NCBI GenBank assembly: GCA_015488755.1
Contig: WFNB01000093.1
Location: 1-64,000 of the forward strand
DNA from: Gammaproteobacteria bacterium
GTDB taxonomy: Bacteria; Pseudomonadota; Gammaproteobacteria; GRL18
Length of the DNA: 64,000 bases
Direction of reading: 5' to 3'
The first letter of the stretch is position 1. The number at the start of each line of letters is the position of its first letter. This document shows, piece by piece, positions 5,966 through 28,494 of the stretch. The translations under genes were made by a program, and so were the position numbers. The notes below the pieces were generated by a model. That model was given only the letters and a program-made list of their open reading frames with translations. It made no database searches and was not told the DNA's origin.

Positions 5966-6309
5966 GTTACTATTCCTCTAAACTAAGCATCATTCATATA
6001 CATCACTAGTAAAGTAACCCCCAACCCATTCTAATAAATGCTATCAACTGCAATACATGCTAAGGTTTTTATTTTATATTGCTATAAAAAAATCATACTC
6101 CTATTATTTGTAGGTGTATATGGTGCAAAAGTATACGTGTCACTTTTTCATACACATCCGTTATTTTCGGTAATTAGGAGAATATACGGCTTAATTAACA
6201 TGTAGAGTCTTCTTGATTTTTGTTGAACAAGCCAATGGATGCTATGACTAAGGTCTGAAAATTGCTAAAATCAGCGATTATTTCACCAATACTTTAAGGA
6301 ATTTCCTCT
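5966..6309. other. Intergenic region between divergent cas3 and the polysaccharide cluster
   Basis: 344 AT-rich bases hold the 5' regions of cas3 (minus) and the carbamoyltransferase gene (plus). I see no open frame, CRISPR repeat or copy of the 17-nt self-target here. AAGGA at 6297-6301 is a plausible ribosome binding site for the GTG start at 6310. No convincing promoter pair was found by eye. Confidence 0.5.
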
Positions 6310-8082
6310 GTGCCATTGATCACCCTTGGATTATCAGGTTCTCTTAATCACGATCCCTCTGCTGCCTTATTTATTGATGGTAAGCTGGTTGCCGCTGCCG
6401 AAGAAGAACGTTTTCTTCGAGATAAGCATGCAAAAGGCAAAATGCCAGTGGAAGCGACCCGTTTTTGTCTTGATTATGCAGGTATCAGTGCTGATCAAGT
6501 TGATATTGTCGCTGTTCCCTATGCAGAGATTGATCTATCCAGTGAGGCTCGATGGCATTATGCTAAGCGTTATTGGTATGCACCGGATCGAGCCTTAGAT
6601 GCCTTATTTAATGGTAATCGTCGTTACCGTCGTTATGTGGGCTATATTAAGGCGATGTGTGAAACGGTTGGTATTGATTGGAACACGATTCAATTTGAGT
6701 CTGTAGAACACCACCTTGCTCATGCCAGTAGTGCTTATCATCTTAGTGGTTTTAAAGAAAAAACCGCCATTATGGGGATTGACGGCAAGGGTGAATATGC
6801 GACAACTTTTTTCGGTTATGGCGAGAATGGCAAAATTCATAAAATCAAAGAGTTTTATGACCCAGATTCCCTAGGTGGTGTTTATGGTGCGATTACAGAA
6901 TACTTGGGCTTTGAAATGCTTGATGGTGAGTTTAAAGTCATGGGGATGGCACCTTATGGTGATCCTAATAAGTATGACTTCTCTCGTTTAATTGAACTTA
7001 AAGAAACTAGTAAGGGCTTGGATTTTAAAGTGAATACCAAGCTGGTTAATGTGATTGGCACTCGGCGCTATAAAGAAAAGGGTAAGGGCTATTATTTTTC
7101 ACCTGAGCTGATTGATTGGTTAGGGCCTAAGCGAGAAGGGGATGAGATTGATGATCCCTATATTGATTATGCCGCCTCTATGCAACACTTATTTGAAACC
7201 ATTTCCTTAAAGTTAATGGACTATTATCTGGGTGATATTATTAAAGAAACCGGTAAAATTGCCTTTGCCGGTGGTGCTGCCTTGAATGTTAAATTAAACC
7301 AAAAAATTATTGCTCGTGATGAGGTGAAAGAACTCTTTGTCCAACCGGCGGCGTCTGATGCAGGCACTGCTATTGGGGCAGCCAGTTATGTCATTGCCAG
7401 CAAAGGCTTTGAACTGGAAAAAATGGAGCATGTGTTTCTTGGTCCAGAATTTAGTAATGAGCAGTGCATCAGCGCTTGCCAAAGCTATCAAACAAACGAT
7501 CAGCAAGCCGTTCAATTTACGCAAATTAATGATGTCCCCAAAACCATTGCTAAAATTCTAGCAGATGGTAATCCTGTATCATGGTTTCAGGGTCGTATGG
7601 AGTTTGGCCCTAGAGCCTTGGGCGGACGTAGTATTTTAGGTTGCCCTAGTGTGCCAGGTGTTGCCGATAGAATTAATGAGCAAATAAAATTCCGTGAGCG
7701 CTGGCGACCCTTTTGCCCCAGCATGTTAGACACCGTTGCACCGATTATGCTAAAAACCGATCATCCAGCTCCTTTTATGACCTTTACTTTTGAAGTCAAT
7801 GATGGCTGGGCAGAACGAGTGCCTGAGGTCGTGCATGAAGATGGTACGGCGCGAGCACACACGGTAAAAGAGTCGGTTAACCCTAGATATTATGCCTTAC
7901 TTAAAGAAGTTGAAGTGTTAACAGGCAATGGCGTGGTCTTGAATACCTCATTAAATCGCCGAGGGGAACCGGTGGTGTGTACCCCCGAAGATGCCCTAAG
8001 GATGTTTTATGGTTCGGATTTACAATATTTAATTATGCAGGATATTTTGGTTACCAAAACGACATCACCGGCTTATGAATAA
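6310..8082 (+). CDS. Carbamoyltransferase of the NodU/CmcH/TobZ family
   Basis: A 590-residue protein with a GTG start. The N-terminal half has the Kae1-like fold signature: LGLSGSLNHDPSAALF, metal-binding HHLAHASSAYH near residues 133-143, and GIDGKGEYATT. The C-terminal YrdC-like part has SWFQGRMEFGPRALGGRSIL near residues 425-444. Members transfer a carbamoyl group from carbamoyl phosphate, through carbamoyl-AMP, onto a hydroxyl of a sugar or other acceptor. Its stop overlaps the next glycosyltransferase start by 8 bases, so the acceptor here is most likely a sugar of the surface polysaccharide. The exact acceptor cannot be read from sequence. Confidence 0.9.
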   Translation: MPLITLGLSGSLNHDPSAALFIDGKLVAAAEEERFLRDKHAKGKMPVEATRFCLDYAGISADQVDIVAVPYAEIDLSSEARWHYAKRYWYAPDRALDALFNGNRRYRRYVGYIKAMCETVGIDWNTIQFESVEHHLAHASSAYHLSGFKEKTAIMGIDGKGEYATTFFGYGENGKIHKIKEFYDPDSLGGVYGAITEYLGFEMLDGEFKVMGMAPYGDPNKYDFSRLIELKETSKGLDFKVNTKLVNVIGTRRYKEKGKGYYFSPELIDWLGPKREGDEIDDPYIDYAASMQHLFETISLKLMDYYLGDIIKETGKIAFAGGAALNVKLNQKIIARDEVKELFVQPAASDAGTAIGAASYVIASKGFELEKMEHVFLGPEFSNEQCISACQSYQTNDQQAVQFTQINDVPKTIAKILADGNPVSWFQGRMEFGPRALGGRSILGCPSVPGVADRINEQIKFRERWRPFCPSMLDTVAPIMLKTDHPAPFMTFTFEVNDGWAERVPEVVHEDGTARAHTVKESVNPRYYALLKEVEVLTGNGVVLNTSLNRRGEPVVCTPEDALRMFYGSDLQYLIMQDILVTKTTSPAYE

Positions 8083-9178
8083 AAAAACAGTCTTACAGCT
8101 TTGCCATGATTATAGTGTGCCTTATTTGGATGTTGCTCGCCAATATGCCAGTTTATTTAAGGGAACGGATTATCGGGTGATCACTGTGTATCTTATTGGC
8201 AATAAAAACAGTGAGGTTGTTCATTATACCGATTCAGATGAGGTTTTATTTCTAGAAAATTGCTCTAAAGAATTGCGTGGTTTAAAGCGTAAACAGATCA
8301 AACAAGTCAAACAATTATGTCAGCAATACGATTTTGATTTTATTATTGCCCATCGTTATAAGGCCATGTTTATTGCTCGACATATTGATAATATGCCGGT
8401 GATTGGTATTCATCACTCCTATGGTAATTATCTGCGTTTTATGCGCCGTTGGTATGTGAATCATCATGTTAAAAATCTTTATCTTGTTGGAGTTTCTAAT
8501 GCCATTCGTGATGATATTCGTCATTATTTGCCTAACTACCCACAAGAGCAGATTCAAACACTTTATAATCGAATTAATATCAATGCGGTTATGGAAGCAC
8601 AAGTGCCACGTTATGAAGCTAGAGAACACTTAGGTATTGCGCAAGATGCCTATGTTTTTTCTAATGTGGGACGTTTGCACCCAGATAAGGATCAAAAAAC
8701 TCTGATTAGCGCCTTTGCAAAAGTGGCTCATAAACTCCCTAAGGCGATACTAATGATTTTGGGTAAAGGTCGCCTTGAAGCCGCTTTGAAGCAACAGGTA
8801 AAAGACTTAGGTTTATCTAATAAGGTGATTTTTACTGGTATGGTGGCTAATGCTGTTAACTATTATCGAGCCTTTGATGCTTTTATTTTAAGTTCAGACT
8901 ATGAGCCTTTTGGTATGGTATTATTAGAAGCCATTATGGCCGAGGTTCCTATAATAGCCACCAATGTTGGCGGGGCTAAAGAAATTATTAGCCAACAAGA
9001 ATGGTTATTTGATGTGGGTGATGATAATGCTCTGGCAGAAAGAATGTTAGCCATGTACCAATTAGATAGCTCGCAACGAGAAGTGGTTAATACAAAAAAC
9101 AAACAGTTTTTAGAAGCAAACTTTACCGATGATGCGGTTAAAAAAGCCTTTTGGCAATTGCCCTTTATGGCAATGTAA
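8075..9178 (+). CDS. Glycosyltransferase family 4 (GT-B fold)
   Basis: A 367-residue protein. The C-terminal nucleotide-sugar domain has GRLHPDKDQKTLISAFAKV near residue 200, ILGKGRLE, and the GT4 signature SSDYEPFGMVLLEAIMAEVP with ATNVGGAKEII around residues 273-307. Such enzymes add a sugar from an activated donor to a growing glycan in the cytoplasm. It overlaps the carbamoyltransferase by 8 bases and is followed after 3 bases by a GT9 gene, so the three form one operon. Donor and acceptor are unknown. Confidence 0.88.
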   Translation: MNKKTVLQLCHDYSVPYLDVARQYASLFKGTDYRVITVYLIGNKNSEVVHYTDSDEVLFLENCSKELRGLKRKQIKQVKQLCQQYDFDFIIAHRYKAMFIARHIDNMPVIGIHHSYGNYLRFMRRWYVNHHVKNLYLVGVSNAIRDDIRHYLPNYPQEQIQTLYNRININAVMEAQVPRYEAREHLGIAQDAYVFSNVGRLHPDKDQKTLISAFAKVAHKLPKAILMILGKGRLEAALKQQVKDLGLSNKVIFTGMVANAVNYYRAFDAFILSSDYEPFGMVLLEAIMAEVPIIATNVGGAKEIISQQEWLFDVGDDNALAERMLAMYQLDSSQREVVNTKNKQFLEANFTDDAVKKAFWQLPFMAM

Positions 9179-9181
9179 TTT

Positions 9182-10231
9182 ATGAAACCAGTCTCTAATC
9201 AAAAAAAAGCGATTAACTCATCTAATAAGCCCCTAAAAGTTGCTTTTATTCCTCTACAGCGTCTTGGCGATGGTGTCATTACCTTATTGGTGGCCAATAA
9301 TCTGCATCAAAACCATTACGATGTCACTATGTTTCATGGCTTTATGCACCAATTAAATGATTGGTTTGACTTTTCCATTCAAGCGTATCCTAGTCATGAG
9401 CAAATAGAAAAACGCTTACAAGAGTTTGACTTAGTGCTAATGGATCAATGCATTCCTTATGTATTAGAAAAAGATAAGCAACAGCAAATTGTTTTATCTG
9501 AGCGTTATATTTTTTTTGCTGCTGGGCGAATGCCTAAAGAATTAATACATAATCATAGTGAACGTTTACAACAGAGTATTGGTCTTGAGCGTCTATCAGA
9601 ATACCAGTCTTTTGCCACAGCAAGCCGTGCGATAAAATATAATAAAGAAGATTCAATGGTTGATAATATGGTGAAATATTGTCAGCTCACGTTAAAATTA
9701 AGCAATATCGCTAATAATACAGGGATAGATATCCCTAATTCTTTAGAATTTCAAAAATATAAGAAGCGAGTTATTATTGCTCCGACCAGCAGTCTAGAGA
9801 AAAAAAATTGGGGTGCTAAAAAATTTATTGCTTTGGCTCGCCATTTAAAAAAACAAGGTTATGATCCTATTTTTGCGCTTGCTATGAATGAACGAGAACA
9901 GTGGCAATTCATTATTAACAATGAATTTTTAATACCAGAATTACCCACCATAAAACATTATGCAAACTATTTGTATGAGTCTTTGGCTTTTATTGGTAAT
10001 GACTCTGGTGGTGGACACATGGCCTCAATGATGGGCATACCGGTACTGACTATAGTGAGCAGTCCACGGAAAATAAATTTCAAATGGCGACCCGGTTGGG
10101 GAAACAATGCGGTTGTTGCCCCGTTTGTTAGCCCTAAGTTTATGGGTAAACGTTATTGGCAGAATTTTTTACCGGTTAGAAAAGTGCTTAATGCCTTTTC
10201 TAAGATGATAAAAACTGAGGCTAATGACTAG
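9182..10231 (+). CDS. Glycosyltransferase family 9 (heptosyltransferase-like)
   Basis: A 349-residue protein with the GT9 layout: N-terminal FIPLQRLGDGVITLLVANNL, mid-protein APTSSLEKKNWGAKKFIALA, and C-terminal FIGNDSGGGHMASMMGIPVL that resembles the GNDSGPMH donor-site motif of WaaC/WaaF. Family members attach heptose or related sugars in the LPS core. The second half of the motif differs from classical heptosyltransferases (SGGGH for SGPMH), so the donor may differ. Last gene of the plus-strand operon; 155 bases without features follow. Confidence 0.8.
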   Translation: MKPVSNQKKAINSSNKPLKVAFIPLQRLGDGVITLLVANNLHQNHYDVTMFHGFMHQLNDWFDFSIQAYPSHEQIEKRLQEFDLVLMDQCIPYVLEKDKQQQIVLSERYIFFAAGRMPKELIHNHSERLQQSIGLERLSEYQSFATASRAIKYNKEDSMVDNMVKYCQLTLKLSNIANNTGIDIPNSLEFQKYKKRVIIAPTSSLEKKNWGAKKFIALARHLKKQGYDPIFALAMNEREQWQFIINNEFLIPELPTIKHYANYLYESLAFIGNDSGGGHMASMMGIPVLTIVSSPRKINFKWRPGWGNNAVVAPFVSPKFMGKRYWQNFLPVRKVLNAFSKMIKTEAND

Positions 10232-10386
10232 AACCTTAAAGTAAGTGATCCCTATGCTATACTGAGTTATCCTGTCCCAAAAGTTCTTAACTATCATCAG
10301 TCGTTAAATTTATATTTTCACGAAAATGGTTTCACTTGAGTGATTATAATGTCTTGAACTAATCAGAACTTTGATAGGTGTAAGTC

Positions 10387-11244
10387 TTATAGTTTTTCAA
10401 TTTGCTCTTGATCAAGCCCAGTTAACTCAATAATATCGGCAATAGAATAGCCCTTTTGTTTTAATTTGCTAGCAACTTCCATTTTTCCAGCATTCATCCA
10501 TTTAACTTTTCCTTTTTCTAGACCTTTTTCTAGGCCTTTTTCTAGACCTTTTTCTAGGCCTATATTATATGATGGTAATTCATCTATTCGTACTGATAAC
10601 ATGGTTTCTTCCTCTTGTACGACTTTCTGTAGTTCTCTATTCAAGGACAGTATTTCCAACATAGCCATTGAATCTCGAAAGCCTTTTTCATTGTTTTGGT
10701 GATAATGCTTTAACTTACGGATAATGTGATGGATCACCTCACGTTCATTACGTCCCTTAAAATCACAAAGAATGGCAATAATAAGAGCATCGGGTTTATT
10801 GGACTGTAAAAAATTCTTACAATCAACTTCGTGCATATCAATCAGATGGTAATGATACTCCAAGCCATTGCTATATATGCTATTGGCCATTGTTAAAGAG
10901 TCTTTACCGATATAAATCAGATATTGTTCCACATCATAGTTGGGCCATTGTAAACGGATGTCAGTGAGATAGCGTAACATGCGAATGCCAATTTTTGGAT
11001 CATTATTATTTTGTATCTCAACGTGTAATAAATACTCTCTATTTGCCTCTTTTACTAAGACCACAATATCAGCACGACGTTCTTCGATACGCTGAGTTTG
11101 TGTTTCTAATACTTCCAATGAGATAATATCTAGATTAAACAAGTATTTACTGATGTCTTCAATCAGCCGTTTGATGATATCTTTGGAAATAATGTCTTTT
11201 TCTGCCATGAGGAAAGTATAGTTGATTGTTGCAATAATTGCCAT
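10387..11244 (-). CDS. Rpn-family (PD-(D/E)XK) recombination-promoting nuclease-like protein
   Basis: A 285-residue protein. The N-terminal two thirds have the PDDEXK pattern of the Rpn/YhgA-like family: RRADIVVLV with a candidate metal Asp, then EYLLHVEIQN with the E-x-Q pair, and MLRYLTDIRLQWP after it. The C-terminus has four LEKG tetrapeptides and then a helical ending, SIADIIELTGLDQEQIEKL, typical of the group. An internal Met at residue 13 (MAEKDIISKD) may be the true start. Rpn proteins cleave DNA and promote recA-independent recombination, and some act in phage defence. It interrupts the glycan cluster and has no clear functional link to it. Confidence 0.8.
   Translation of the reverse strand: MAIIATINYTFLMAEKDIISKDIIKRLIEDISKYLFNLDIISLEVLETQTQRIEERRADIVVLVKEANREYLLHVEIQNNNDPKIGIRMLRYLTDIRLQWPNYDVEQYLIYIGKDSLTMANSIYSNGLEYHYHLIDMHEVDCKNFLQSNKPDALIIAILCDFKGRNEREVIHHIIRKLKHYHQNNEKGFRDSMAMLEILSLNRELQKVVQEEETMLSVRIDELPSYNIGLEKGLEKGLEKGLEKGKVKWMNAGKMEVASKLKQKGYSIADIIELTGLDQEQIEKL
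10511..10558 (-). repeat. Four tandem 12-bp units encoding LEKG in the Rpn-like gene
   Basis: Four exact-length units, CCTTTTTCTAG followed by A or G alternately (plus strand), occupy 10511-10522, 10523-10534, 10535-10546 and 10547-10558. Read on the minus strand they give the repeated peptide LEKG. The unit is a multiple of three, so slippage would change the length of the linker and keep the frame. Confidence 0.95.
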
Positions 11245-11275
11245 TAAGGGGAGCAGAGTTAAGCTCTTGCTACCC

Positions 11276-12169
11276 CTATCCCAGTGATATTTTGTTGATA
11301 TCGCCGTGATCCTTTAATGCCTGATTAACATTAATATACTGCCACTCGGTCACCTTAATTTTATAGGGAAACCATGATTCATCAGGCCAGCCTAAATTAT
11401 ATTCTGGGGCAATAATAACTTTATTCTCATTATCATTTAACCATCCTCCCCACCAAGAGAAGGTGCTATTAGCAAGAATATTGTACCGACAACGGGTGAG
11501 TAAATGCATATCAACGACGGCAGGATTATTGCGTGAGATGTATTTATTGGGCAGCTGTTCAAAAACCTGTGCAGCAAAATCTGGATCATCACTAATAATA
11601 ATATAAAAGAGATCCTCAGATAAGTTCTTAAGTGCTTCTTGGTAATAAGCAATGGGTAATAGCCAACCTAAGCCATCTTTTTTTTCTTCCATTGCCTGAT
11701 AATCAGAACGGCGCACATGAATGCAACATCTTTTTTCTATGGGGATATTAATTTCATCTTCAATATTTCTTACTTGCTCACGATAGTGTACTCTTGGAGT
11801 AAACCACCTTAAGATATTGTTACGGTTATCCTTAAAATAATATTCCGACTGGAAGGTTCCCTGTACGGTATAACCATCTTTTAGATCAAAAAATTCTGGT
11901 TCAATGAGCTCATGAAGTTTTGTGCTACTAAAGGGTATTTGTTTAAAGCGAAATAAACGTTTTCTAGAAAAGGGGTTTAATTCATAAAAAAAACGTTGCC
12001 AAAATAATGAAAATTTTGTTTCACCCGACAATTCAAAGTCTTCAAAAAGAGACCCTTTTTTACCCCCTCGAAAGCAGAATTGATAGCCTTTTTGATCAGC
12101 CAGAGTTTTACAGGCGGCGTATTGAAACATATTGTTGCCTGTTTGGGCATTCATTTTAAGCATTAACAT
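11276..12169 (-). CDS. Glycosyltransferase family 11 (alpha-1,2-fucosyltransferase type)
   Basis: A 297-residue protein with the GT11 blocks: N-terminal NAQTGNNMFQYAACKTLA, CCIHVRRSDYQ near residue 150 (the GDP-sugar binding motif), YIIISDDPDFA, and ILANSTFSWWGGWLN near residue 230. GT11 enzymes transfer fucose, or a similar GDP-linked sugar, to a galactose O-2. No GDP-fucose synthesis genes are in the window. It follows the upstream glycan gene by 5 bases on the same strand, so it is the last gene of the minus-strand glycan operon. Confidence 0.88.
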   Translation of the reverse strand: MLMLKMNAQTGNNMFQYAACKTLADQKGYQFCFRGGKKGSLFEDFELSGETKFSLFWQRFFYELNPFSRKRLFRFKQIPFSSTKLHELIEPEFFDLKDGYTVQGTFQSEYYFKDNRNNILRWFTPRVHYREQVRNIEDEINIPIEKRCCIHVRRSDYQAMEEKKDGLGWLLPIAYYQEALKNLSEDLFYIIISDDPDFAAQVFEQLPNKYISRNNPAVVDMHLLTRCRYNILANSTFSWWGGWLNDNENKVIIAPEYNLGWPDESWFPYKIKVTEWQYINVNQALKDHGDINKISLG

Positions 12170-12174
12170 AGGCT

Positions 12175-13455
12175 TTACTGGTACTCTTTTGCTAAAATGG
12201 ATAAGCTCATAGTATCCATTTTTTCATTAATTTCAATAATAGGAAAATCTTCTTTATTTTGTGTAATTGAATAAAGGCAATGACTGATATAGTCTATGGA
12301 GTCTTGCTGATATTCTAAATGATAGTGGGCAAATTTTTGTGCCTGCTCGATATAATAAGGATAATCCTTAAGCATGGTCTTAATATTATCAGCTAATTGT
12401 TGCTCATTGGTTGCTCTTGGGAGATAAAATTTTTCCAGAGATAATTCATCATTTAGATTGTCTATATTATAAGGGCAGACTAATAAGGATGGTCTGTTTA
12501 ATAGAGCAGAATCAATAACAGCATTGGTGTAAATACTCAGACTGATGGCTATGGGTTCTAGGCAATGGGTCAGTTTTTCTAAGGCATTAAGTGTTTTTAT
12601 ATTGCTAATAGTTTGTGATGCCTCTTGCCAATAGGTACTACGACTTCTGGGATGCGGTTTAATGTACAGTGTATAGTCTGGGTTATTTTCAGCCCATTTT
12701 TTTATATAATCATAAATATTTTGGTAGCTACGTTGCTTTTCTAAATCAGGATAAATACCAAACAATAAAATATTTTTATTGGCACTTCCTGCTTTAAGTG
12801 TAAAGTCTTTATTTGAAAAATAAGGGCCGGTTAATACCGCTTTAGTATGACCAAAACGGACTTGACGTTGCATGATTTTATCAAGAGAACTGCGACCATA
12901 TAAAAAATAATAATCATAATCAATTAAACTAAAACGAGCAAAATTATCTGTGGCAACACAATGCGCTATATGTACCAGTTTACCACAAGGCTGTATGGCT
13001 TCTCTTAGAAAGGAAGAATAAATTGAACCGTTTCTATCGCTAATAATAATTTTTGGCTGATAAGAATCTACAATATACTGGACATAACTGGCATTGAATA
13101 AGTGCTTAAAAGTAACAGCGTATTTATAACGAGTGAGTAAGCGTTTTTTTAAAATTTTGGACGGCCTTTGTTGAGCCGTTTCCAATACTGTGAGTCCCTG
13201 CTTTTGTAATTGAGCAATTAATGGATCTCTAAGCCTTAAGGCCATTGATTTTTCTGAGGCGTGTAAAAATAGAATATCACAGGTGTTATTCTTTAAATGA
13301 GATCGACTAAAAAATAAGGTAAAGAAACTGTATAGATAATAACGCAACGGTTCGATAATGCGCTTGGAAAATTTTATCTTTCCCTCAGAGGATTTACGCA
13401 TTTTATTTTGCCAGATAAAATAGTCTTGATACTGTTTTATTTTGTGCTTATTCAT
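12175..13455 (-). CDS. Putative capsule/teichoic-type glycosyl- or glycerophosphotransferase (GT-B-like)
   Basis: A 426-residue protein that I do not recognise with certainty. The C-terminal half has YTLYIKPHPRSRSTYW, the K-x-HP motif shared by CDP-glycerol glycerophosphotransferases, KpsC/KpsS and polysialyltransferase-like enzymes, followed by SLSIYTNAVIDSALLNRPSLL, where that group usually binds the nucleotide donor. No signal peptide or clear membrane span; FFTLFF near residue 40 is short. It lies 9 bases after the CMP-ulosonate synthetase gene, which fits transfer of a CMP-activated residue. The donor is inferred from context only. Confidence 0.6.
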   Translation of the reverse strand: MNKHKIKQYQDYFIWQNKMRKSSEGKIKFSKRIIEPLRYYLYSFFTLFFSRSHLKNNTCDILFLHASEKSMALRLRDPLIAQLQKQGLTVLETAQQRPSKILKKRLLTRYKYAVTFKHLFNASYVQYIVDSYQPKIIISDRNGSIYSSFLREAIQPCGKLVHIAHCVATDNFARFSLIDYDYYFLYGRSSLDKIMQRQVRFGHTKAVLTGPYFSNKDFTLKAGSANKNILLFGIYPDLEKQRSYQNIYDYIKKWAENNPDYTLYIKPHPRSRSTYWQEASQTISNIKTLNALEKLTHCLEPIAISLSIYTNAVIDSALLNRPSLLVCPYNIDNLNDELSLEKFYLPRATNEQQLADNIKTMLKDYPYYIEQAQKFAHYHLEYQQDSIDYISHCLYSITQNKEDFPIIEINEKMDTMSLSILAKEYQ

Positions 13456-13464
13456 TGGGCAATA

Positions 13465-14211
13465 TTACAATAAAGTGATTTTTTTAACAATTTTATCGAC
13501 ATCTGAGGGTATGTCTACGGCCAATGATCCAGCTTCTACTTCGACCATTTTAACCTTAATGCCTGCTTCTAAAAAGCGTAAGATTTCAATATCCTCTACA
13601 GCTTCTAATGGAGTTTTTTGGCTATTGCTATGAAAGAGTTTAAGGTGCTGTTTAGAAAAGGCATAGATGCAGACCTGCTTATAGGCAAAGTGAAAATCCC
13701 CCTCCTTTGATAAAGGAATACCAGCTCTACTCATATATAATAATGAGCCGTGTTGATCGCAAACCACTTTTGGGACGGTGAGTGAATCAAACTCTTCTGG
13801 TGAGCTTATTTTGCACATGGCATTAATAATTTGCTCTGGGTGATTAATATAGTCATTGATAATGGCTTGTATGTCACTTGGCTTAATTAAAGGCTCATCA
13901 CCTTGCACATTAATAATAAAGTCACACCCTAATTGTTCATTTGCTTCAGCTAATCGGTCTGTACCTGTTAAGCAGGTGCTGGAGGTCATAATAACCTGAC
14001 CACCAAAACCAGTGACTGTATCGGCAATGCTTTGGTCATCAGTGGCCACATAGACTTTTTGTGATCCAACCGCATCGCAACAGCGTTGCCAAACATGTTG
14101 GATCATAGGTTGGCCACAAATATCCACCAAGGGTTTTCCTGGGAAACGGGATGATTGATAACGTGCAGGGATTAGCACAGCAAAATTATAAGTGTTAAAT
14201 TGGGTGTTCAT
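13465..14211 (-). CDS. kdsB: CMP-ulosonate synthetase, KdsB-type (3-deoxy-manno-octulosonate cytidylyltransferase)
   Basis: A 248-residue protein with the KdsB signature set: AVLIPARYQSSRFPGKPL, VYVATDDQSIADT, STCLTGTDRLAEA, and FIINVQGDEPLI. The family couples CTP with Kdo to give CMP-Kdo and PPi for LPS or capsule. I chose the ATG at 14211, which gives the normal family length; a TTG at 14232 would add 7 residues and overlap the HAD gene. It sits in an operon with a HAD phosphatase and a pyruvate-aldolase-like gene, so its substrate may be an unusual ulosonic acid. It could equally be the only kdsB of the genome. Confidence 0.85.
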   Translation of the reverse strand: MNTQFNTYNFAVLIPARYQSSRFPGKPLVDICGQPMIQHVWQRCCDAVGSQKVYVATDDQSIADTVTGFGGQVIMTSSTCLTGTDRLAEANEQLGCDFIINVQGDEPLIKPSDIQAIINDYINHPEQIINAMCKISSPEEFDSLTVPKVVCDQHGSLLYMSRAGIPLSKEGDFHFAYKQVCIYAFSKQHLKLFHSNSQKTPLEAVEDIEILRFLEAGIKVKMVEVEAGSLAVDIPSDVDKIVKKITLL

Positions 14212-14221
14212 TGTTTTTTTC

Positions 14222-14884
14222 TTAATCGACAAAGGAATGCATCACGGGAAAGTGATACGCTTGTGCTCGTGCCAACATTTTTTCTTTTACATTGGAATAA
14301 GGGACATAAAATAGAAAATCAATCCCATTATCTATGGCCGCTTGATGATCAGCAATAGCATCACCAATAAAGAGCACTTTTTTATTTTTATGCTGTTTGA
14401 TGATGTGCTTAACATTATCGGATTTTGTTATCGGGCTACCCAGTATGGCGTTAAAATAATGAGCCAGATCGCGTTGTTTAAAGATTCTAATCAGTTGTTT
14501 TTCTTCTGAACCTGAAGCAATGTAGAGTATTTTATCACTTAAAGAATTGAGTAAATTTTGCATACCATCTGTCATGGCAACCTGTAAATATTCTTGTTCA
14601 ACTGCATTGTTATAGTATTGTAAAATCAACTGTTGTTGCTGAATACTTTTTTCTTTGCTGAGCCCCCATAATGTTTCGACAAAATATTGACTATGGAAAT
14701 AGCGACTTTTACCAAAATTATTTTTAAAGGCATCAATGGCAGAAGAGATTAATTCATTTGGAAATTCAGAGTCTTTTAATGCGACCCGCATGGCGGCTAT
14801 TTTCATTGTGTTGGAATCTAAAATAACCCCATCACAATCAAAAATAATGACATCATAAGCAGTGAATATATCACAGCAGGGCAT
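14222..14884 (-). CDS. HAD-superfamily phosphatase
   Basis: A 220-residue HAD hydrolase of subfamily I. Motif I is VIIFDCDGVILDS near residues 12-24 (nucleophile Asp and the second Asp at +2), motif II is LYIASGSEE, and motif IV is VLFIGDAIADHQAA. It would remove a phosphate from a small metabolite in the cytoplasm. It overlaps the upstream aldolase gene by 14 bases, and kdsB follows after 10. A sugar-acid phosphate made by the aldolase and later activated with CMP is the most natural substrate. It is not a close match to the shorter KdsC (motif placement and cap differ). Confidence 0.8.
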   Translation of the reverse strand: MPCCDIFTAYDVIIFDCDGVILDSNTMKIAAMRVALKDSEFPNELISSAIDAFKNNFGKSRYFHSQYFVETLWGLSKEKSIQQQQLILQYYNNAVEQEYLQVAMTDGMQNLLNSLSDKILYIASGSEEKQLIRIFKQRDLAHYFNAILGSPITKSDNVKHIIKQHKNKKVLFIGDAIADHQAAIDNGIDFLFYVPYSNVKEKMLARAQAYHFPVMHSFVD

Positions 14885-16496
14885 AAACAGATCCTTTTTT
14901 AATTGGGTAGGTTGTTGGTGTGATGGCTATAATATCTAAGTTACTATGCTTATCTTGTAATAATTGAAACAGACTGATCATTTCTTGTTGGCGTTTATCG
15001 GTAGCGTCATAGCCATCAAAACCTGCTAATATGATCTGTTGAGCATGCCCTGTTATGGCCACACATAAGGCATAGGCGATGGTTAAATCATAAGGAATAA
15101 CACATGAATTCTGCTCGGCCTGAAACGTATTGGTTGCTATTTTTACACCATAATTAATAGAATCGGGTAGGGTATTAAGGTGTTTAATTTCATTTTCTTT
15201 AAAACGATGTTTAGGATAGATTAGAGGCTTATTCAATTTCTGATAATGGTTATAGTCAGATAAAAATTTCAGATTATGAGAGATACAAAAATAGTTAATT
15301 AGGACATTATCAATTTTGTCGACCAAATTAATACCGATAACAATGGGCTGATATTTTTTAATATACAATTCAAGAGCACGTTTATGTTCATTTGTGCCAG
15401 AGGCATTAGAAATAATTAAGACATCACGGCCGCTAAAAATAGGGTCTAGCTTTTGTCCTATTGCTTCACTATTGGTATTGCTCAGTGATAAAGCGGTTTC
15501 TAATAATTTGCCATCGTATTTATTGGTTCCCCCTTCTTCTAGTAAAAATTTAATGGAGCCGACTAACTCTTCTTTGCCTAAATGGCTATTGGATAACATA
15601 TTTTGAATATACATTGGGTGGACATTATGTTGTGCGCCTAAAAAATAAAGCAAATGCTCCCCCCAACCATAGCGTTTTTTTAAAGGCTCAAATTGTTGTA
15701 TGACTAACTCATAAATAGAATAAGGATTGAAGGTTTTTTTATTTGCTTGATTTTTCTTTACAAGCAGGCTGGCCAATAATTTCTCAGTGGCTGTGTTGCC
15801 TGCACCTCGTCCCATGCCGGTAATAGTTGCATCGATCCACTGTACGCCTGATTCTATGGCCAATAAGCTATTATCTAAGGCTCGCCCCATATTATTATGT
15901 GTATGTATCCCCAATGGTTTATGCCATTGGCTGCGTAGGGCGGTAATAATACGAGTGACTTCATGGCTATCCATATTGCCTAAGGAATCAGCAAAATAAA
16001 GGATGTCTACACTATTCCATAAGGCAATTTGTTTCGCTGTATTACTGATCAACTCAGATGCTTTACCGCTTGCTTGCATTAAGTTAAAGGCAACTTGATA
16101 ACCCATATTTTTTAATTCAAGAGCAATCTCTCTAGATGCCTCCACCTCTTGAAAATAAGCAGCAATTCGCACTAAGGATATTTTGCTCTTATTTTTAGGG
16201 CTAAATAACTGGTGAATGGCAGTATGGATGCTCTTATCTGATGAGAGTATGGTTTTGGCATCTAACATAACAGCATAATCAAGATTATCAGGCAGTGATA
16301 AACTATTTAGATAATCTTCAGATGTATAGGCAAAAGCCCCTAGAAAAATTTCTTTAGGGAAATTTCTTAGGCCTAATTCGACGGTGTTAATACCGGAGCG
16401 GCTGATAGCACTTAAATAGTCATTGACTAAGTCTTCTGAAAAATTCCAAGCATTATAATAACCACCGTCACGCAAAGTGCAATCAAGTATGTTCAA
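14871..16496 (-). CDS. HMGL/DmpG-like pyruvate aldolase fused to an unknown C-terminal domain
   Basis: 541 residues in two parts. Residues 1 to about 300 are a TIM-barrel aldolase of the HMG-CoA lyase/4-hydroxy-2-oxovalerate aldolase superfamily: NILDCTLRDGGYYNAWNF at the start, and metal-binding GIHTHNNMGRALDNSLLA with GMGRGAGNTATEKL after it. Residues from about 340 (GRDVLIISNASGTNEHKRAL) to the end look like a Rossmann-type domain with ILAGFDGYDATDKRQ, vaguely like MptE/DUF115 domains. Genes of this type occur in glycan clusters. With the HAD and KdsB-type genes directly downstream, I infer that it joins pyruvate to a sugar aldehyde. It overlaps both neighbours. Confidence 0.75.
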   Translation of the reverse strand: MNILDCTLRDGGYYNAWNFSEDLVNDYLSAISRSGINTVELGLRNFPKEIFLGAFAYTSEDYLNSLSLPDNLDYAVMLDAKTILSSDKSIHTAIHQLFSPKNKSKISLVRIAAYFQEVEASREIALELKNMGYQVAFNLMQASGKASELISNTAKQIALWNSVDILYFADSLGNMDSHEVTRIITALRSQWHKPLGIHTHNNMGRALDNSLLAIESGVQWIDATITGMGRGAGNTATEKLLASLLVKKNQANKKTFNPYSIYELVIQQFEPLKKRYGWGEHLLYFLGAQHNVHPMYIQNMLSNSHLGKEELVGSIKFLLEEGGTNKYDGKLLETALSLSNTNSEAIGQKLDPIFSGRDVLIISNASGTNEHKRALELYIKKYQPIVIGINLVDKIDNVLINYFCISHNLKFLSDYNHYQKLNKPLIYPKHRFKENEIKHLNTLPDSINYGVKIATNTFQAEQNSCVIPYDLTIAYALCVAITGHAQQIILAGFDGYDATDKRQQEMISLFQLLQDKHSNLDIIAITPTTYPIKKGSVYALL

Positions 16497-17590
16497 TTTA
16501 TTTTTCCATTGTATTTTTTAATCAGAGAATGCCATTGTTCTATTAATTGGGCATTAAAATCTTGTGTAAGTACCCACTTGCTTTGAACCTCTAATAGTTG
16601 ACTCATGGTATTATTATGTTCTTTTTTTATGGGGTCATAAAGTTTGTGCAAATGTTTGATTGCTTTTGTTAGCCAAATAATTTTTGCCGTATCTTGTGCT
16701 TTATTTTTATACCTAAATTGTGCATAACTTAGTTCTAAAAGAACTTTTCTTAATTTTTTATTCTTAAACTGTAGATGTAATAATTTTTTTAAAAACCGAT
16801 AGGCAATAGGTGGCTTTGGTATGGATAATTTAAGTTTAGAGATGCTATTAGGCTGTTTAATAAGTGATTTTTCTGTGTGTTGGCTTAAATAATAAGCAAT
16901 TTGTTGATCATAAAATAATTTTTCTTTGCCAAAATAATGCACCACGATATCGTCGCTGGCATGCAGTGTTGTTTTTTGTCGTAAAATTTCACTGATTGCC
17001 AGCTGTTCGACAATAAAAATACCATCACTTAAACGATAAAAATTATCCAATAATACCAGTGCTTCATCTAATAAAATAAGATGCTCAGGGTGTAAACCAA
17101 TCACACCTGAATTCCACATAATGGCATTATCAGGGAAATAATATTGCTTATTATAAAAATCTAAAAATGATGTATTTTGTAGTTTTTCATAAATATTTTG
17201 ACAATCAGAGATAGGTGTTTCTTGATTAAATAATACGCTATTGCTTGTTGATATTTTATTGAATATTTCTATGGGATGCTTAATGAAATAAGTATCTGTA
17301 TCAATAAAGACAAGGGGTACCTTATATTTCTCTAGTATCATTGCGATAGAGCGATTTTTTGCTCTATGATTATAGCTGTCCTTACCGATCCACTCTTGAT
17401 ATCGTTGCTCATCAAAGGTTTCAATTAAAATTGGAAAGTTGGCAAAAGACTGAGGCCGATCAGTGACCACGATAATTTCAATATCCTGTTGGTCTTTATT
17501 CAAATAGGACAAGGCAGACAAAATACTGTATTTTGCTTCCTGATAGTAAGAGGTGTTATCACCATAGACTAAATACATTAATAATTTCAT
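16493..17590 (-). CDS. Putative GT-A-type glycosyltransferase
   Basis: A 365-residue protein. Near residue 95 it has VPLVFIDTDTYFIKHP, a DxD-like motif in the setting seen in GT8/GT-A enzymes, preceded by KNRSIAMILEKY. NSGVIGLHPEHLILLDEAL fits the acceptor-side region of GT-A folds. The C-terminal third is basic and helical. It overlaps the ligase gene upstream by 1 base and the aldolase gene downstream by 4, so it belongs to the same operon. No family could be fixed by eye and the linkage it makes is unknown. Confidence 0.6.
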   Translation of the reverse strand: MKLLMYLVYGDNTSYYQEAKYSILSALSYLNKDQQDIEIIVVTDRPQSFANFPILIETFDEQRYQEWIGKDSYNHRAKNRSIAMILEKYKVPLVFIDTDTYFIKHPIEIFNKISTSNSVLFNQETPISDCQNIYEKLQNTSFLDFYNKQYYFPDNAIMWNSGVIGLHPEHLILLDEALVLLDNFYRLSDGIFIVEQLAISEILRQKTTLHASDDIVVHYFGKEKLFYDQQIAYYLSQHTEKSLIKQPNSISKLKLSIPKPPIAYRFLKKLLHLQFKNKKLRKVLLELSYAQFRYKNKAQDTAKIIWLTKAIKHLHKLYDPIKKEHNNTMSQLLEVQSKWVLTQDFNAQLIEQWHSLIKKYNGKIN

Positions 17591-18855
17591 TATTTATTCA
17601 CACTCCTAGAATAAACAGTCTTTAATTCTTTTGGTGATGTAGTTAGATGCACTTTTCGACCAATAAAAATACCAATAGGAAGCCACATAATCATATAATA
17701 CTTATTAGGCTTGGTCACGATTTCTGCAATTTCAAATAGTTGTACACTTAATGAGAAGAGCAGTATGCCTAGTGCCAACCAGACAAAATCATCATGTAAA
17801 TATTTTTTTACGCTGACAAGGAGTTTTGTTAGCATGGCTAAGTAAAGAGTCAAACCGATTAAGCCCGAAAAATAAAAAATACTCAAATACAGATTGTGAG
17901 GATGTGGAATGATACAGGATAATTTGATGCCATTAACCATTTGTGTCACGGTATAATGAAATGTGGCATTGGAGCCATAACCTAATAGGGGTTTGTCAAC
18001 AATATAAGATAAGGTTAGCAGCCAGTTTTGTGGGCGAAAGCTAAGGCCATCTCGGTAAATAAAACGGTCAAAAATTTCGGGGAAAATAAATAAAATAATG
18101 GTACTTGAGCTGAGTAATAAAAGTGTTCCATAACGTAGTATTGTGTGATATTTATTGATGTATAGATAGCATAATAGGGTAAAAAAGAGTGCTATCCACA
18201 TGGTTCTTGAATAAGTAAAAAATGCAGCAATCAGAATTAGAATAGAGGCAATAAATAGGATTATTTTTATAATAGATGGTGTTTTTATTCTCAATAACAT
18301 GATTCCTAGAGTAAAAAAAGTACCCAGATAAATAGCAAATACTTGAGGATGGTTTAAAGAGTTCCAGCCCTCAAAGCCTGTATTACTCAGTCTATGGTTT
18401 AGCTCTTGATTGTTGATAAGATAGTTTTGCACGATAAATAAAAGTGAAAATAAAGCCACATAAATAAGTGTTGCACTGAGGGTGATATAGAGTAACTGCT
18501 CTTTTTTACTAATAATGCTAACCCCCACAATGTATAAAATACATAATAGAGATGCTTTGAGTTCATTGCTTAAATTACTATTATCAGACCATAAATTGCT
18601 CAAGCTATAATAAAATATAAAAGAAAATAATAATAAATATAATGTTGAGTTGATCTTTAGCTCGCTAAGGATATTTTTCCAGTTAACTAAAAATAATAAA
18701 ATCAAAGGTAGATAAAAACCAAAATAAACCCAAGTACGATAGCCGTGGTCAAATACCAAAGAGCCGAGTAATTGAATAAACAAGCCAAGGGCTAACCATT
18801 TTTCAAGGATCAGTATTATATCGCTTGTGTGAATGGATTTTATTAAATTATGCAT
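17590..18855 (-). CDS. O-antigen ligase/polymerase (WaaL/Wzy superfamily)
   Basis: A 421-residue membrane protein with about ten hydrophobic segments. It has the Wzy_C-type region FFTYSRTMWIALFFTLLCYL and, after a large periplasmic loop, IIPHPHNLYLSIFYFSGLIG, the conserved H-x-H-N block of the superfamily. Members either polymerise O-units or transfer glycan from undecaprenyl diphosphate to lipid A-core in the inner membrane. The two activities cannot be told apart reliably from sequence. It overlaps the kinase gene upstream by 8 bases. No Wzx flippase is visible in the window. Confidence 0.85.
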   Translation of the reverse strand: MHNLIKSIHTSDIILILEKWLALGLFIQLLGSLVFDHGYRTWVYFGFYLPLILLFLVNWKNILSELKINSTLYLLLFSFIFYYSLSNLWSDNSNLSNELKASLLCILYIVGVSIISKKEQLLYITLSATLIYVALFSLLFIVQNYLINNQELNHRLSNTGFEGWNSLNHPQVFAIYLGTFFTLGIMLLRIKTPSIIKIILFIASILILIAAFFTYSRTMWIALFFTLLCYLYINKYHTILRYGTLLLLSSSTIILFIFPEIFDRFIYRDGLSFRPQNWLLTLSYIVDKPLLGYGSNATFHYTVTQMVNGIKLSCIIPHPHNLYLSIFYFSGLIGLTLYLAMLTKLLVSVKKYLHDDFVWLALGILLFSLSVQLFEIAEIVTKPNKYYMIMWLPIGIFIGRKVHLTTSPKELKTVYSRSVNK

Positions 18856-19510
18856 TGCTGCTCTTTAATAATTGGCTTGTTTGTAAAAATTTACGAACAA
18901 ATAAAGGGTTATTAATAGAGCAATGTTGGAGATAGGATTGCTCGATACTTTTGCTACCTTGTAATAAATTAATATCTTCTGCAATGCGAAAGATATGTTT
19001 TAAATTGCGTATCCGCTTAAAATAACCTAATGAAAAAGGGCTAATGCTCATATCTGAAATATCAATTAAGCCAAGTTGTTGATTTGGCATAACAATAATA
19101 TTGCCAAAATGTGCGGCACGAAAATAAATGCCCTTATCATGTAAGTGGGCAATAAATTCACCGACCTTTGCTAAGAATGCTTCATTGTGTGGGTGTTTAT
19201 GCAGATAATGTCTGAGTGTCATGCCTTCAAGTTGTTGATAATGCACGGCCGTACGCTGTATGGCTTTTATTTTATAAAGGGCAATTAGCTGAATTGTGGG
19301 AATATTGAGTTTATGGAGTTTTCTGGTGTTGTTGGCAAAGCGCCGAGCAGGTGAATACAGTGTTGCTTGAGAAATAAAGCGCTTCACCCGAAATAATTTT
19401 AAAATACTCTGATCAGCCAATTCTAAGACTTTCTTACCATATTCATCCTCTGTGAGCATTGTGGCATTTTTTGTAAGGGCATCAAATTCTTGCTGACTGA
19501 GTGTTTGCAT
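18848..19510 (-). CDS. WaaP/InaA-like lipopolysaccharide kinase family protein
   Basis: A 220-residue protein resembling the Kdo/WaaP kinase family in small form, often labelled toluene tolerance protein. Visible kinase elements are KLFRVKRFISQA near the N-terminus (possible ATP-lysine), VHYQQLEGMTLRHYL, and the catalytic/metal region GIYFRAAHFGNIIV with LGLIDISDM (DFG-equivalent Asp). The usual catalytic Asp of the HRD-like motif appears to be Ala here, so activity is uncertain, although I believe related proteins look similar. It is first in the minus-strand glycan operon, which supports a role in LPS core phosphorylation. Confidence 0.7.
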   Translation of the reverse strand: MQTLSQQEFDALTKNATMLTEDEYGKKVLELADQSILKLFRVKRFISQATLYSPARRFANNTRKLHKLNIPTIQLIALYKIKAIQRTAVHYQQLEGMTLRHYLHKHPHNEAFLAKVGEFIAHLHDKGIYFRAAHFGNIIVMPNQQLGLIDISDMSISPFSLGYFKRIRNLKHIFRIAEDINLLQGSKSIEQSYLQHCSINNPLFVRKFLQTSQLLKSSNA

Positions 19511-21730: not shown

Positions 21731-24700
21731 ATGATAAAAATATTCAACAATAAAACTGATAAAGTGGGTGATGACTTTAAGAAAAGCATTACTACGGGTA
21801 GCAAAATTGATATTGCAGCCGCTATTTTCTCTATCTACGGGTATGCAGCATTAAAAAAAGAACTTAATAAAATCAAGCAACTCAGGTTCATATTCACAGA
21901 CCCTACATTTATAGAATTGGATAAAAATAAAAGAGAGCAAAAACAATTTCAAATCAACTCCAATAATAGAAAAAAATCAATCAGTGGATCGGTTTTTGAA
22001 ATAGACCTAAAAAATGAACTAAAAGGCAAAGCAATTGCTCAAGACTGTAAAAAATGGATTACCGAAAAAGTAAGCTTTAAAAGCAATGCGGGCAATCAAT
22101 ATATCCAGCCACATTTAAGCCTGTCAAATCAGATGGGCAATTTTATATATACAGGAATAAATGAATTTAGCAGTGCAGGCTTTGGCTATCAAAAAGACAA
22201 CACGGTCTTAAACCAAATCATCAAAATAGATGATTTAGAGACAACCCAGCAATACACCCAGAATTTTGAAGATGTATGGAATGATAAAAAAGTATTAAAG
22301 GATGTTACAACAGAAGTCATTGACTACATAGCCGAACTATACAAAGAAAATTCACCTGAGTTTGTTTACTATGTCACCCTGCATAATATTTTTAATGAAT
22401 TTTTAGAAGATGTCTCTGAAGATGAGCTTGCCAATGAAAAAACAGGCTTTAAAGAATCGGTTATATGGAACATGCTCTATGATTTCCAACGTGATGCTGT
22501 TTTAGGTATTATTAATAAATTAGAACGTCACAATGGTTGCATATTAGCGGATAGTGTCGGCTTAGGTAAAACCTTTTCAGCATTAGGCGTGATTAAGTAT
22601 TATCAAGAACGCAATCGCACTGTATTAGTTCTTTGCCCAAAAAAACTAGGTGATAACTGGAAAACATTCTTAAATAATTATAATGACAACCCGTTAATTA
22701 AAGACCGTTTTAATTACGATGTGCTGTATCACACCGATTTATCAAGAAATAGAGGCTTTTCAAATGGCATTGATTTATCAAGAATAAATTGGGGCAACTA
22801 TGACCTTGTGGTAATTGATGAATCGCATAACTTTAGAAACAATGACCCCAAAAAAGATAAAGTTACCCGCTACCAAAAACTACTCCAGCAAGTCATGCAA
22901 GCAGGTGTTAAAACAAAAGTATTAATGCTTTCAGCTACCCCCGTTAATAACAAATTTACTGATCTTAAAAACCAGATTGCATTAGCTTATGAAGGTCAAA
23001 CAAATGTGATTGATGGCAAAATGGAAGTAAGCCAGTCTGTTGATAGCATTCTACGAAATTCACAAAAAATATTTAATGATTGGTCAAAGCTAGATGATAA
23101 TGAACGTACCAGCCAACAACTGCTAAGTCGCTTAAACCAACATTTTGATTTCTTTAAATTACTCGATAGTGTCACCATTGCCCGAAGTCGAAAGCATATC
23201 GAAAAATATTACGATATGGCGAAAATTGGACAATTCCCTACGCGATTAAAGCCAATAACACACCGTTCGGACATTACAAAACTCAAAGGTTTTATTGGTA
23301 TCACTGATTTATACCAAGAACTATCAAAACTCAATTTATCTATTTATTCACCAATGAACTATATCTTAGCCAGTAAAGTACCGTTTTATAGTGATTTATA
23401 TGATACTGAAACCAATCAAGGTTCTAGTTTTAAGCAATCGCATAGGGAAAAAAGCCTACAGACCTTGATGCGAGTCAATCTACTTAAACGTTTAGAGAGT
23501 TCAGTCGACTCCTTTCGGATTACCCTAGAAAAGCTAGTCAAGCGAATACATAAAAATATCAATAGCATTGATGACTTTGAAAAAAAAGGCACCAAAATCT
23601 ATGCAGAGGAGCCACAGATCAATGATGTTAATTTGGACATTGAACGTGATGACTGGCTAGATACTGAATTTAGTATTGGTGATAAAGTAAAAATCAACCT
23701 TGCAGATATGAATACATCAGGTTGGAAGAGTGATTTACAAGAAGATTATGCCATAGCCAATGCGCTACTAGGTGAAATAAAAAAAATCACACCTGAACAT
23801 GATAAAAAGCTACAAGACTTAAAACAGTTTATTAGTGACAAAATCAACAAGCCCATCAATGATGGCAATAAAAAAATTATTATCTTTAGTGCCTTTGCAG
23901 ACACCGTAGACTACCTCTATAAAAATATAGCCGCTTACAACAAAGAACAGCATAACCTTGAGAGTGCGAAAATCACGGGATCAGATAAAAATAAAACCAC
24001 GCTGGATATTGCCAACGAATTTAATAATATCCTTATCAATTTCTCACCACGCTCAAAAAACCGAGGCAACACCACAACTTCAGAGATAGACATACTCATT
24101 GCTACCGACTGTATTTCAGAAGGGCAGAACCTGCAAGATTGTGATACCTTAATCAACTACGATATTCACTGGAACCCCGTCAGAATCATTCAACGCTTTG
24201 GACGAGTCGATAGAATAGGTTCACCAAACAAGGTGATCCAACTTATTAACTTCTGGCCACAACTTTCCTTAGACGATTACATTAACTTAAAAAGTCGAGT
24301 GGAAAGTAAAATGTTTATGGTGGATATGACCGCCACAGGAGAAGACAACGTATTAACCAATCAATCCTCTGATTTATTATTCAGAAAAAAACAACTTGAA
24401 CAGCTACAAGATGAAGTTATTGACCTTGAAGATGTCGATACAGGCATATCAATTACAGATTTAGGCTTGAATGATTTTCGTATGGACTTGGTAAACTACG
24501 TTAATGAAAATGGCAGCTTAGAGAGTGTCCCCAATGGCATACATACGGTGTGCAATAAAGCGATTGAAAAAGGTATCCATAAAGGCTGTGTGTTTGTGCT
24601 AAAAAATATCAATAATGACGTTAATATTGACAATACCAATCAGCTACACCCTTTCTATCTTGTCTATATCAAAGAAAATGGAGAAATACTATCGAATCAT

Positions 24701-24979: not shown

Positions 24980-24991
24980 CGAGAACAGAAA

Positions 24992-25672
24992 ATGAGCCTA
25001 CCCCTACCCCTACCCCTACCCGACAGTGCATTAGTGAATGGCTTTATTCCCAAAACCAAGTTCTACGAGAAAGTGGTGATAAGCGCTAAATTAAAAAATG
25101 ATTTTGTGAATAAGATACAACGAATCACTTGGCACTATAAGCTCTCAGAAAATACGCTGGGTATCAATAAAACAGAGGCAGTAACAGAAATACAAATTTT
25201 TACTATCGAATTAAAAGAGCAACAGATTCCTAAAAATATTCTGACTCTGATTGATAAAGTCATTCCCTACCAAATTCTGTATCAATTTACCTATAATGAG
25301 CAAGCAGCATACGGGATCACCTTAAAAGGCTTAACTGAGTTTGAAAAATCAAAGCCAAGCGATTATTACTTTTCACAATGGAACGAGCCAATTCAATTTG
25401 ATTTTACAGGTACAGACTTAGAACAGGTCTACCAAAAGCTGATTAAAGCCTTTATTAAAAACAAACCAACGCAATCTACTCAAGCCCATGATTTTAAGGC
25501 AGTGATTGAAACTGACCAGAAAATCAAACAGCTAGAAAAAGACATTGGCTTATTAGCAAAGAAAATCAGCAAAGAAAAACAAATGAATCGAAAAGTCGAT
25601 TTAAACAAAATATTATTAGATAAACAGCAACAGCTAGAAACGATACAAAACGGAAATAATCATGCAAAGTGA
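24992..25672 (+). CDS. DUF4391 domain protein
   Basis: A 226-residue protein. After a short Leu-Pro repeat it has FIPKTKFYEKVVISAKLKNDF and ITWHYKLSENTLGI, which fit the DUF4391 family that accompanies helicase/restriction clusters. The C-terminal 60 residues are rich in Lys, Glu and Gln and probably form a coiled coil (KQLEKDIGLLAKKISKEK). No catalytic motif is visible. It starts 12 bases after the helicase stop and overlaps dinD by 11 bases, so it is part of the same unit. Function is unknown; an adaptor role is a guess. Confidence 0.7.
   Translation: MSLPLPLPLPDSALVNGFIPKTKFYEKVVISAKLKNDFVNKIQRITWHYKLSENTLGINKTEAVTEIQIFTIELKEQQIPKNILTLIDKVIPYQILYQFTYNEQAAYGITLKGLTEFEKSKPSDYYFSQWNEPIQFDFTGTDLEQVYQKLIKAFIKNKPTQSTQAHDFKAVIETDQKIKQLEKDIGLLAKKISKEKQMNRKVDLNKILLDKQQQLETIQNGNNHAK
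24997..25020 (+). repeat. (CCTACC)4 hexanucleotide repeat at the start of the DUF4391 gene
   Basis: Four perfect CCTACC units directly after the second codon encode LPLPLPLP. The unit is two codons long, so changes in copy number would keep the frame. Confidence 0.95.
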
Positions 25673-26513: not shown

Positions 26514-26516
26514 AGA

Positions 26517-28493: not shown

Positions 28494-28494
28494 G

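Follow-up and report, generated by a model that had tools for sequence, protein, structure and literature searches.

To our knowledge, the cytidine monophosphate (CMP)-activated ulosonic acids of known biosynthesis, namely 3-deoxy-manno-octulosonic acid (Kdo), the sialic, legionaminic and pseudaminic acids and 2-keto-3-deoxynononic acid (Kdn), all begin from phosphoenolpyruvate (PEP) via KdsA or NeuB. Duplicates of the Kdo genes exist for capsules (KpsU type), and sugar transferases of the Maf/GT42/GT29 fold group use CMP-ulosonates. Here we describe a cassette of three genes, coding for an aldolase, a haloacid dehalogenase (HAD) phosphatase and a KdsB-type synthetase, that is located in positions 1 to 64,000 of contig WFNB01000093.1 (assembly GCA_015488755.1) of a gammaproteobacterium of the GRL18 lineage; this whole stretch of 64,000 nucleotides is called the window below. 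The cassette probably encodes a complete pathway of its own, leading to a 3-deoxy-2-ulosonic acid that is CMP-activated, differs from Kdo and is destined for a surface glycan. A preliminary description of this DNA had proposed that the genes follow the logic of Kdo and sialic acid synthesis with another class of aldolase, and that they would yield a non-standard 2-keto sugar acid. As far as computation goes, this proposal is supported by the conservation of the cassette, by the KdsB and NeuA partners of the aldolase, by a gene fusion, by a Bacillus strain in which the cassette coexists with a kdsBADC set, and by a Rossellomorea genome in which it occurs without KdsA, KdsD or a true NeuB.

Organization and conservation of the cassette

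The cassette genes lie on the minus strand and overlap or nearly touch. The first codes for a two-domain aldolase (14871..16496, minus strand), with a DmpG/HMGL-like TIM barrel (residues 1 to about 301) and a Maf/GT42/MptE-like domain (about 345 to 541). It is followed by the gene of a 220-amino-acid HAD phosphatase (14222..14884, minus strand; HAD_2, E 8.5e-14), beta-phosphoglucomutase-like and presumably C1-capped, that keeps an intact DxDGV motif and is the proposed ulosonate-phosphate phosphatase, and by that of a KdsB-type CMP-ulosonate synthetase (13465..14232, minus strand; CTP_transf_3, E 4.8e-47). The aldolase gene starts at the TTG at 16496, which overlaps the stop codon of the upstream gene (TTGA), and the HAD gene overlaps the aldolase gene by 14 nt; the synthetase more likely starts at the ATG at 14211, 10 nt past the HAD stop codon, than at the first in-frame TTG, at 14232. 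These coordinates and family matches confirm the set of overlapping or near-overlapping genes (DmpG/HMGL-like aldolase with an extra domain, HAD phosphatase, KdsB-type enzyme) of the preliminary description. Its remark that neither KdsA nor NeuB is encoded nearby also holds: no KdsA was found in the window and no NeuB-family synthase among its scanned proteins. In this genome, the only kdsA lies on contig C103, and NeuB is confined to contig C44.

Seventy-seven other loci with a two-domain aldolase were picked by aldolase similarity only, and their partner genes were counted by a six-frame hidden Markov model tally; gene calls miss HAD and synthetase genes that are hidden by longer overlapping open reading frames. 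A CMP-ulosonate synthetase was present within 5 kb and on the same strand in 71 of the 77 loci (50 KdsB-type and 21 NeuA-type, two of the latter with CTP_transf_3 confirmed by Pfam), and the same HAD family was encoded beside the aldolase in 55. These loci belong to gamma-, alpha- and betaproteobacteria, Bacillus, Rossellomorea, Bacteroidota, Omnitrophota, Prochlorococcus and SAR11, and since the gene arrangement recurs in dozens of genomes, it is far beyond what chance would give. In a Bacteroidetes single-cell genome (locus L102, 1118-2896), one open reading frame of 592 amino acids joins an HMGL-like domain (residues 24-276) to a CTP_transf_3 domain (352-561), and this aldolase-synthetase fusion has no Maf-like C-terminal domain. 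No relative of the aldolase was detected in viral contigs.

The neighbors of the cassette are surface-glycan genes coding for nucleotide-sugar dehydratases, glycosyltransferases and flippases, and on a Leisingera plasmid the aldolase gene adjoins glycosyltransferase genes. Neither a sugar-phosphate-forming gene nor a PEP-mutase family was among the most frequent neighbor families; the lack of the former there points to central metabolism as the source of the aldose. The enterobacterial homologue of the locus had no match in complete genomes of E. coli, so that no O-antigen of known structure could be tied to it. The aldolase was present in three of 15 relatives within the genus and in six of about 370 sampled genomes of the class, the genome of the window not being counted, a distribution that points to an accessory, variable surface locus.

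The catalytic domain of the aldolase

Residues 2-257 of the 541-amino-acid aldolase match the Pfam HMGL-like family (E 3.9e-26). Its best relative in the PDB is 3dxi, entitled "N-terminal domain of a putative aldolase (BVU_2661)", from Bacteroides vulgatus (31% identity and E 5e-49 by sequence), and the next solved relatives are 4-hydroxy-2-oxovalerate aldolases of the DmpG type. Identity as such an enzyme was considered and rejected, the aldolase scoring 97 bits against model TIGR03217, under the curated cut-off of 286. In DmpG (1nvm), we take Arg17 to be an active-site residue, Asp18, His200 and His202 the metal ligands and His21 the catalytic base. In an alignment of the aldolase with 1nvm, R17, D18, H200 and H202 correspond to its R9, D10, H198 and H200, which are kept in all 45 relatives that were aligned, and the protein is thus a competent-looking member of the metal-dependent superfamily, as judged from its residues. 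In the same 45 relatives His21 is replaced by a tyrosine (Tyr13), and therefore activity and substrate cannot be transferred from DmpG.

This tyrosine is also in favor of another explanation, according to which the HMGL-like protein carries out some other carboxylate chemistry instead of a pyruvate aldol reaction, and the synthetase activates an acid that is not an ulosonate, for example glycerate- or phosphonate-like, as a CMP or cytidine diphosphate donor. Relatives of the aldolase with one domain occur in unrelated clusters of Mesorhizobium and Paraburkholderia, and cytidylyltransferases can act on other acids, reported examples being CpgD, which acts on phosphoglycerate (PMC12275187), and nucleotidyltransferases in phosphonate tailoring (PMC6697681). 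However, two distinct classes of ulosonate-type synthetase (KdsB and NeuA) adjoin the aldolase, the aldolase itself bears a domain with the fold of CMP-ulosonate transferases, and PEP mutases are missing from the frequent neighbors mentioned above, so that we regard this explanation as very improbable.

The C-terminal domain of the aldolase

Residues 345-541 were modeled alone with AlphaFold2 (AF2), with a predicted local distance difference test (pLDDT) of 94.6. By VIA-align, the model best matched the Maf glycosyltransferase 5mu5 (Z 15.1, root-mean-square deviation 2.8 over 183 residues), followed by SteA (Z 12.0), archaeal MptE/HPPK (Z 11.5), the GT42 sialyltransferases CstI/CstII (Z 10.3-10.9) and mammalian GT29 enzymes (Z about 8-8.9); Foldseek alone ranked SteA and HPPK first. 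As modeled, the domain shares the Maf/GT42/GT29 fold of CMP-ulosonate transferases. The MptE-like family PF01973 was detected in 22 of the 45 relatives (best 3e-7), and the C-terminal domain of the window aldolase matched no Pfam family, PF01973 included. A Maf enzyme that takes Kdo and N-acetylneuraminic acid donors has been reported (PMC11339370).

Two roles may be considered for this domain within the proposed pathway. One is that of a glycosyltransferase consuming the CMP-ulosonate, in which case the first and last steps would be combined in one protein; this is a variant of the pathway and not exclusive of it. The best fold matches (Maf, then the GT42 and GT29 sialyltransferases) and a GFDGY-like motif that is near-invariant in the 45 sequences are in agreement with it, but conservation is lower in the domain than in the barrel (mean pairwise identity 32% versus 43% over these sequences), the window protein has a degenerate G-x-GPS motif (SNASG), separate transferase candidates are encoded beside the cassette (12175-13455 in the window, PF01973 proteins in loci L085 and L063) and the L102 fusion does without the domain. 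A transferase role thus appears rather unlikely to us. Because of the lower conservation, the degenerate GPS motif and the coexisting transferase candidates, we favor on balance, without strong confidence, that the modeled domain is a sensor of the CMP-ulosonate or of CMP that regulates the aldolase, and otherwise that it is itself a transferase.

In two Marinobacter cassettes (L040, 10650-11918; L044, 10603-11874), proteins with the look of a GT29-like sialylmotif (VALVGPVASEVEQGAEIDGHDLVVKLGYRG) were observed, which had no PDB or Pfam match. Likewise, a search of PDB sequences returned no match for the MptE/GT42-like neighbor in L063 or the GT29-like one in L044, so a transferase role for these two proteins is only suggested.

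The synthetase and the separate Kdo route

The cassette synthetase scored 164 bits against the kdsB model TIGR00466, over the cut-off of 155. It belongs to the KdsB family and keeps R10, K19, D100 and D235, residues for cytidine triphosphate (CTP) and metal; residues are numbered according to the E. coli KdsB sequence. R10, K19, R78, D100, R157 and D235 are kept by the cassette synthetases, while R164, H181, G183 and Q211, present in all 30 canonical KdsB proteins, are replaced by K, Q, C and I, respectively, in 43-46 of 51 of them. The window synthetase has K, Q and I in place of R164, H181 and Q211, and the KdsB encoded elsewhere in its genome shows the residues of the canonical set. The changed residues fall in the half of the enzyme that has been assigned to Kdo binding and dimerization (PMC3149649). 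In a tree that included lower-scoring KdsB-like proteins, 46 of the 51 cassette synthetases, the window copy among this cassette-specific group, formed one clade (100/98) apart from canonical and other KdsB-like proteins; a tree restricted to top-scoring KdsB had given one clean split, and the fuller tree is the one relied on here.

The genome of the window has separate genes for Kdo: a kdsB on contig C5 (274 bits, versus 164 for the cassette copy), the kdsA on C103 and two kdsC, on C104 and C5. The preliminary description had held that the lack of another kdsB would count against it; that lack is not found, because contig C5 carries a higher-scoring one, and kdsA and kdsC are separate too, an outcome in favor of the proposal. 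One of the two kdsC genes directly precedes this housekeeping kdsB (C5, 95665-97027).

Two Gram-positive strains are informative in this respect. In Bacillus sp. ISL-41 (locus L085), kdsB, kdsA, kdsD and kdsC are in a row at 4096-7221 and the cassette lies downstream, at 8968-12064, with genes for PF01973 proteins in between; the cassette keeps its own HAD phosphatase and synthetase. Rossellomorea aquimaris (locus L041, genome G438) also has the cassette, and its draft genome contains neither KdsA (best match 127 bits versus a cut-off of 314) nor KdsD (44 bits versus 204) above the cut-off, nor a true NeuB, the only match to the NeuB model, of 32 bits, coinciding with the weak KdsA-like match. 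In this strain, no source of a 2-ulosonate other than the aldolase is thus visible, and arabinose-5-phosphate derived from KdsD is not needed.

These data bear on the possibility that the cassette makes ordinary Kdo by another route, in which the aldolase would stand in for KdsA and a second HAD phosphatase and second KdsB would boost CMP-Kdo for a Kdo-rich glycan. Although the synthetase scores above the kdsB equivalog cut-off and receives the NCBIfam name 3-deoxy-manno-octulosonate cytidylyltransferase, and capsule-linked duplicates of the KpsU type are generally known, the sugar-side residues invariant in canonical KdsB are replaced in the cassette enzymes, whereas KpsU (1gq9) retains His and Gln at those sites in the alignment. 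The complete kdsBADC set beside the cassette in Bacillus and the lack, in Rossellomorea, of a KdsD above the cut-off that would supply arabinose-5-phosphate likewise argue against a route to Kdo, which we consider improbable. As an observation in its own right, the complete kdsB-kdsA-kdsD-kdsC set of this Gram-positive Bacillus is situated among glycan genes and is flanked by three PF01973 putative transferases (L085, 3297-8937), which suggests the occurrence of Kdo in a surface polymer of Bacillus sp. ISL-41.

Other genes of the window

The cassette belongs to a tight run of eight genes on the minus strand (11276-19510). Directly downstream of the synthetase gene lies the candidate gene for a CMP-ulosonate-using glycosyltransferase (12175..13455, minus strand), with weak similarity to polysialyltransferases (POLYST, E 0.0013, below gathering) and a KPHPRS "HP" motif; this gene type is also found beside the cassette in genomes of the same genus and in Pseudomonas sp. 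GD04019. It is followed by a GT11-family glycosyltransferase gene of the same operon (11276..12169, minus strand; E 7.6e-20), which adjoins the cassette in locus L021 as well. Upstream of the aldolase gene, the operon contains a gene (16493..17590, minus strand) without a significant Pfam or NCBIfam match, whose product looks like a glycosyltransferase, a gene for an O-antigen ligase/polymerase-like membrane protein (17590..18855, minus strand; Wzy_C, E 3.1e-15) and, first in the run, one for a small WaaP/APH-like kinase with weak Kdo-kinase/Bud32 similarity (18848..19510, minus strand).

Just downstream of the glycan operon, a protein reminiscent of Rpn/transposase-type nucleases (10387-11244, minus strand) carries LEKG repeats close to its C-terminus (LEKGLEKGLEKGLEKGK). 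On the plus strand, positions 21731-32549 hold a run resembling a defense island, which codes for an HKD+SNF2 helicase, a type I specificity-like subunit, a type III restriction methyltransferase, a protein of the PADLOC candidate family PDC-S05 and a type III restriction enzyme.

Discussion

What we observe are the genes and how consistently they occur together, the fusion, the synthetase clade, the fold and the separate Kdo route; from these we infer the chemistry of the cassette, that is, the use of pyruvate, the aldose partner and the product. As its family and residues suggest, the aldolase would use a divalent metal to add pyruvate, as its enolate, to an aldehyde. The acceptor is most likely an aldose phosphate drawn from central metabolism, and the product would be a 3-deoxy-2-ulosonate phosphate. 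The HAD enzyme would then strip the phosphate, and the KdsB-like enzyme, whose CTP and metal residues are conserved, would use CTP and the presumed free acid to form a CMP-ulosonate. Finally, a transferase of the same operon, the best candidate being the 12175-13455 product, would attach the ulosonate to the glycan.

Several observations weigh against this pathway, besides Tyr13, the degenerate GPS motif and the draft status of the Rossellomorea genome. In 22 of the 77 loci such a HAD gene was not found nearby, and five of the 51 KdsB-type synthetases, from Omnitrophota, Microthrix, Nitrosomonadales and SAR11, do not group with the main cassette clade. Six loci (L024, L032, L038, L042, L043 and L045) have an extra HpcH/HpaI-type aldolase near the DmpG-like one, and in three SAR11 loci (L066, L068 and L092) a B12-binding radical SAM protein is the sole same-strand partner adjoining the aldolase, with no synthetase beside; the aldolase may therefore have more than one role. 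Separately, three of the six HpcH/HpaI loci also carry an iron-sulfur LdpA-like protein and another HAD, and a B12-binding radical SAM protein is encoded beside or near the aldolase in L036, L059 and L070.

In a broader reading, held tentatively and at slightly less than an even chance, the cassette would represent a third, PEP-independent class of CMP-ulosonate pathway. In it, a class II pyruvate aldolase, self-regulated via a fused CMP-ulosonate-binding domain or working with it, would make a 3-deoxy-2-ulosonic acid for which no such route is known, and the genes would have spread horizontally through the surface-glycan loci of many phyla, including Gram-positives, SAR11 and Prochlorococcus. 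No paper connecting this aldolase family with ulosonate synthesis was found in the open-access literature, which is weak evidence of novelty. If correct, the aldolase-based entry would be a new, PEP-independent way to CMP-activated ulosonic surface sugars, a role would be given to an aldolase family with a solved structure and no function (3dxi), and many genes annotated as 3-deoxy-manno-octulosonate cytidylyltransferase would be flagged as probably acting on another sugar.

Compared with described proteins, the cassette aldolase resembles the DmpG/BphI-type aldolases (1nvm, 4lrs and 4jn6) in its metal-dependent TIM barrel and its conserved active-site Arg, Asp and two His, but differs in the tyrosine at the position of the base, in a C-terminal domain of another fold and in its biosynthetic sugar context, the window operon having no acylating aldehyde dehydrogenase partner. 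Among solved structures, BVU_2661 (3dxi) is the one most closely related to the catalytic domain; however, the solved chain does not include the C-terminal domain and the entry title names no function. With Maf and the GT42/GT29 sialyltransferases this C-terminal domain shares the fold (Z 15.1 to 5mu5 and 10.9 to CstII), but it is only 8-16% identical to them, smaller and fused to an aldolase, with a degenerate GPS-like motif in the window protein. At the level of pathways, the NeuB-NeuA, PseI-PseF and LegI-LegF routes similarly provide CMP-activated 2-ulosonic acids for surface glycans, and NeuA-type synthetases occur in the 21 loci counted above, whereas the cassette has the aldolase in place of a NeuB-family synthase. 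Unlike the Kdo pathway (KdsD-KdsA-KdsC-KdsB), the cassette has a pyruvate-aldolase-type enzyme and not the PEP-dependent KdsA, a beta-phosphoglucomutase-like HAD and not one of the KdsC type, a synthetase with altered sugar-side residues and no KdsD; like it, the cassette would join a three-carbon unit to an aldose phosphate, remove the phosphate with a HAD enzyme and activate the acid with CMP by a KdsB-family enzyme, in the same order.

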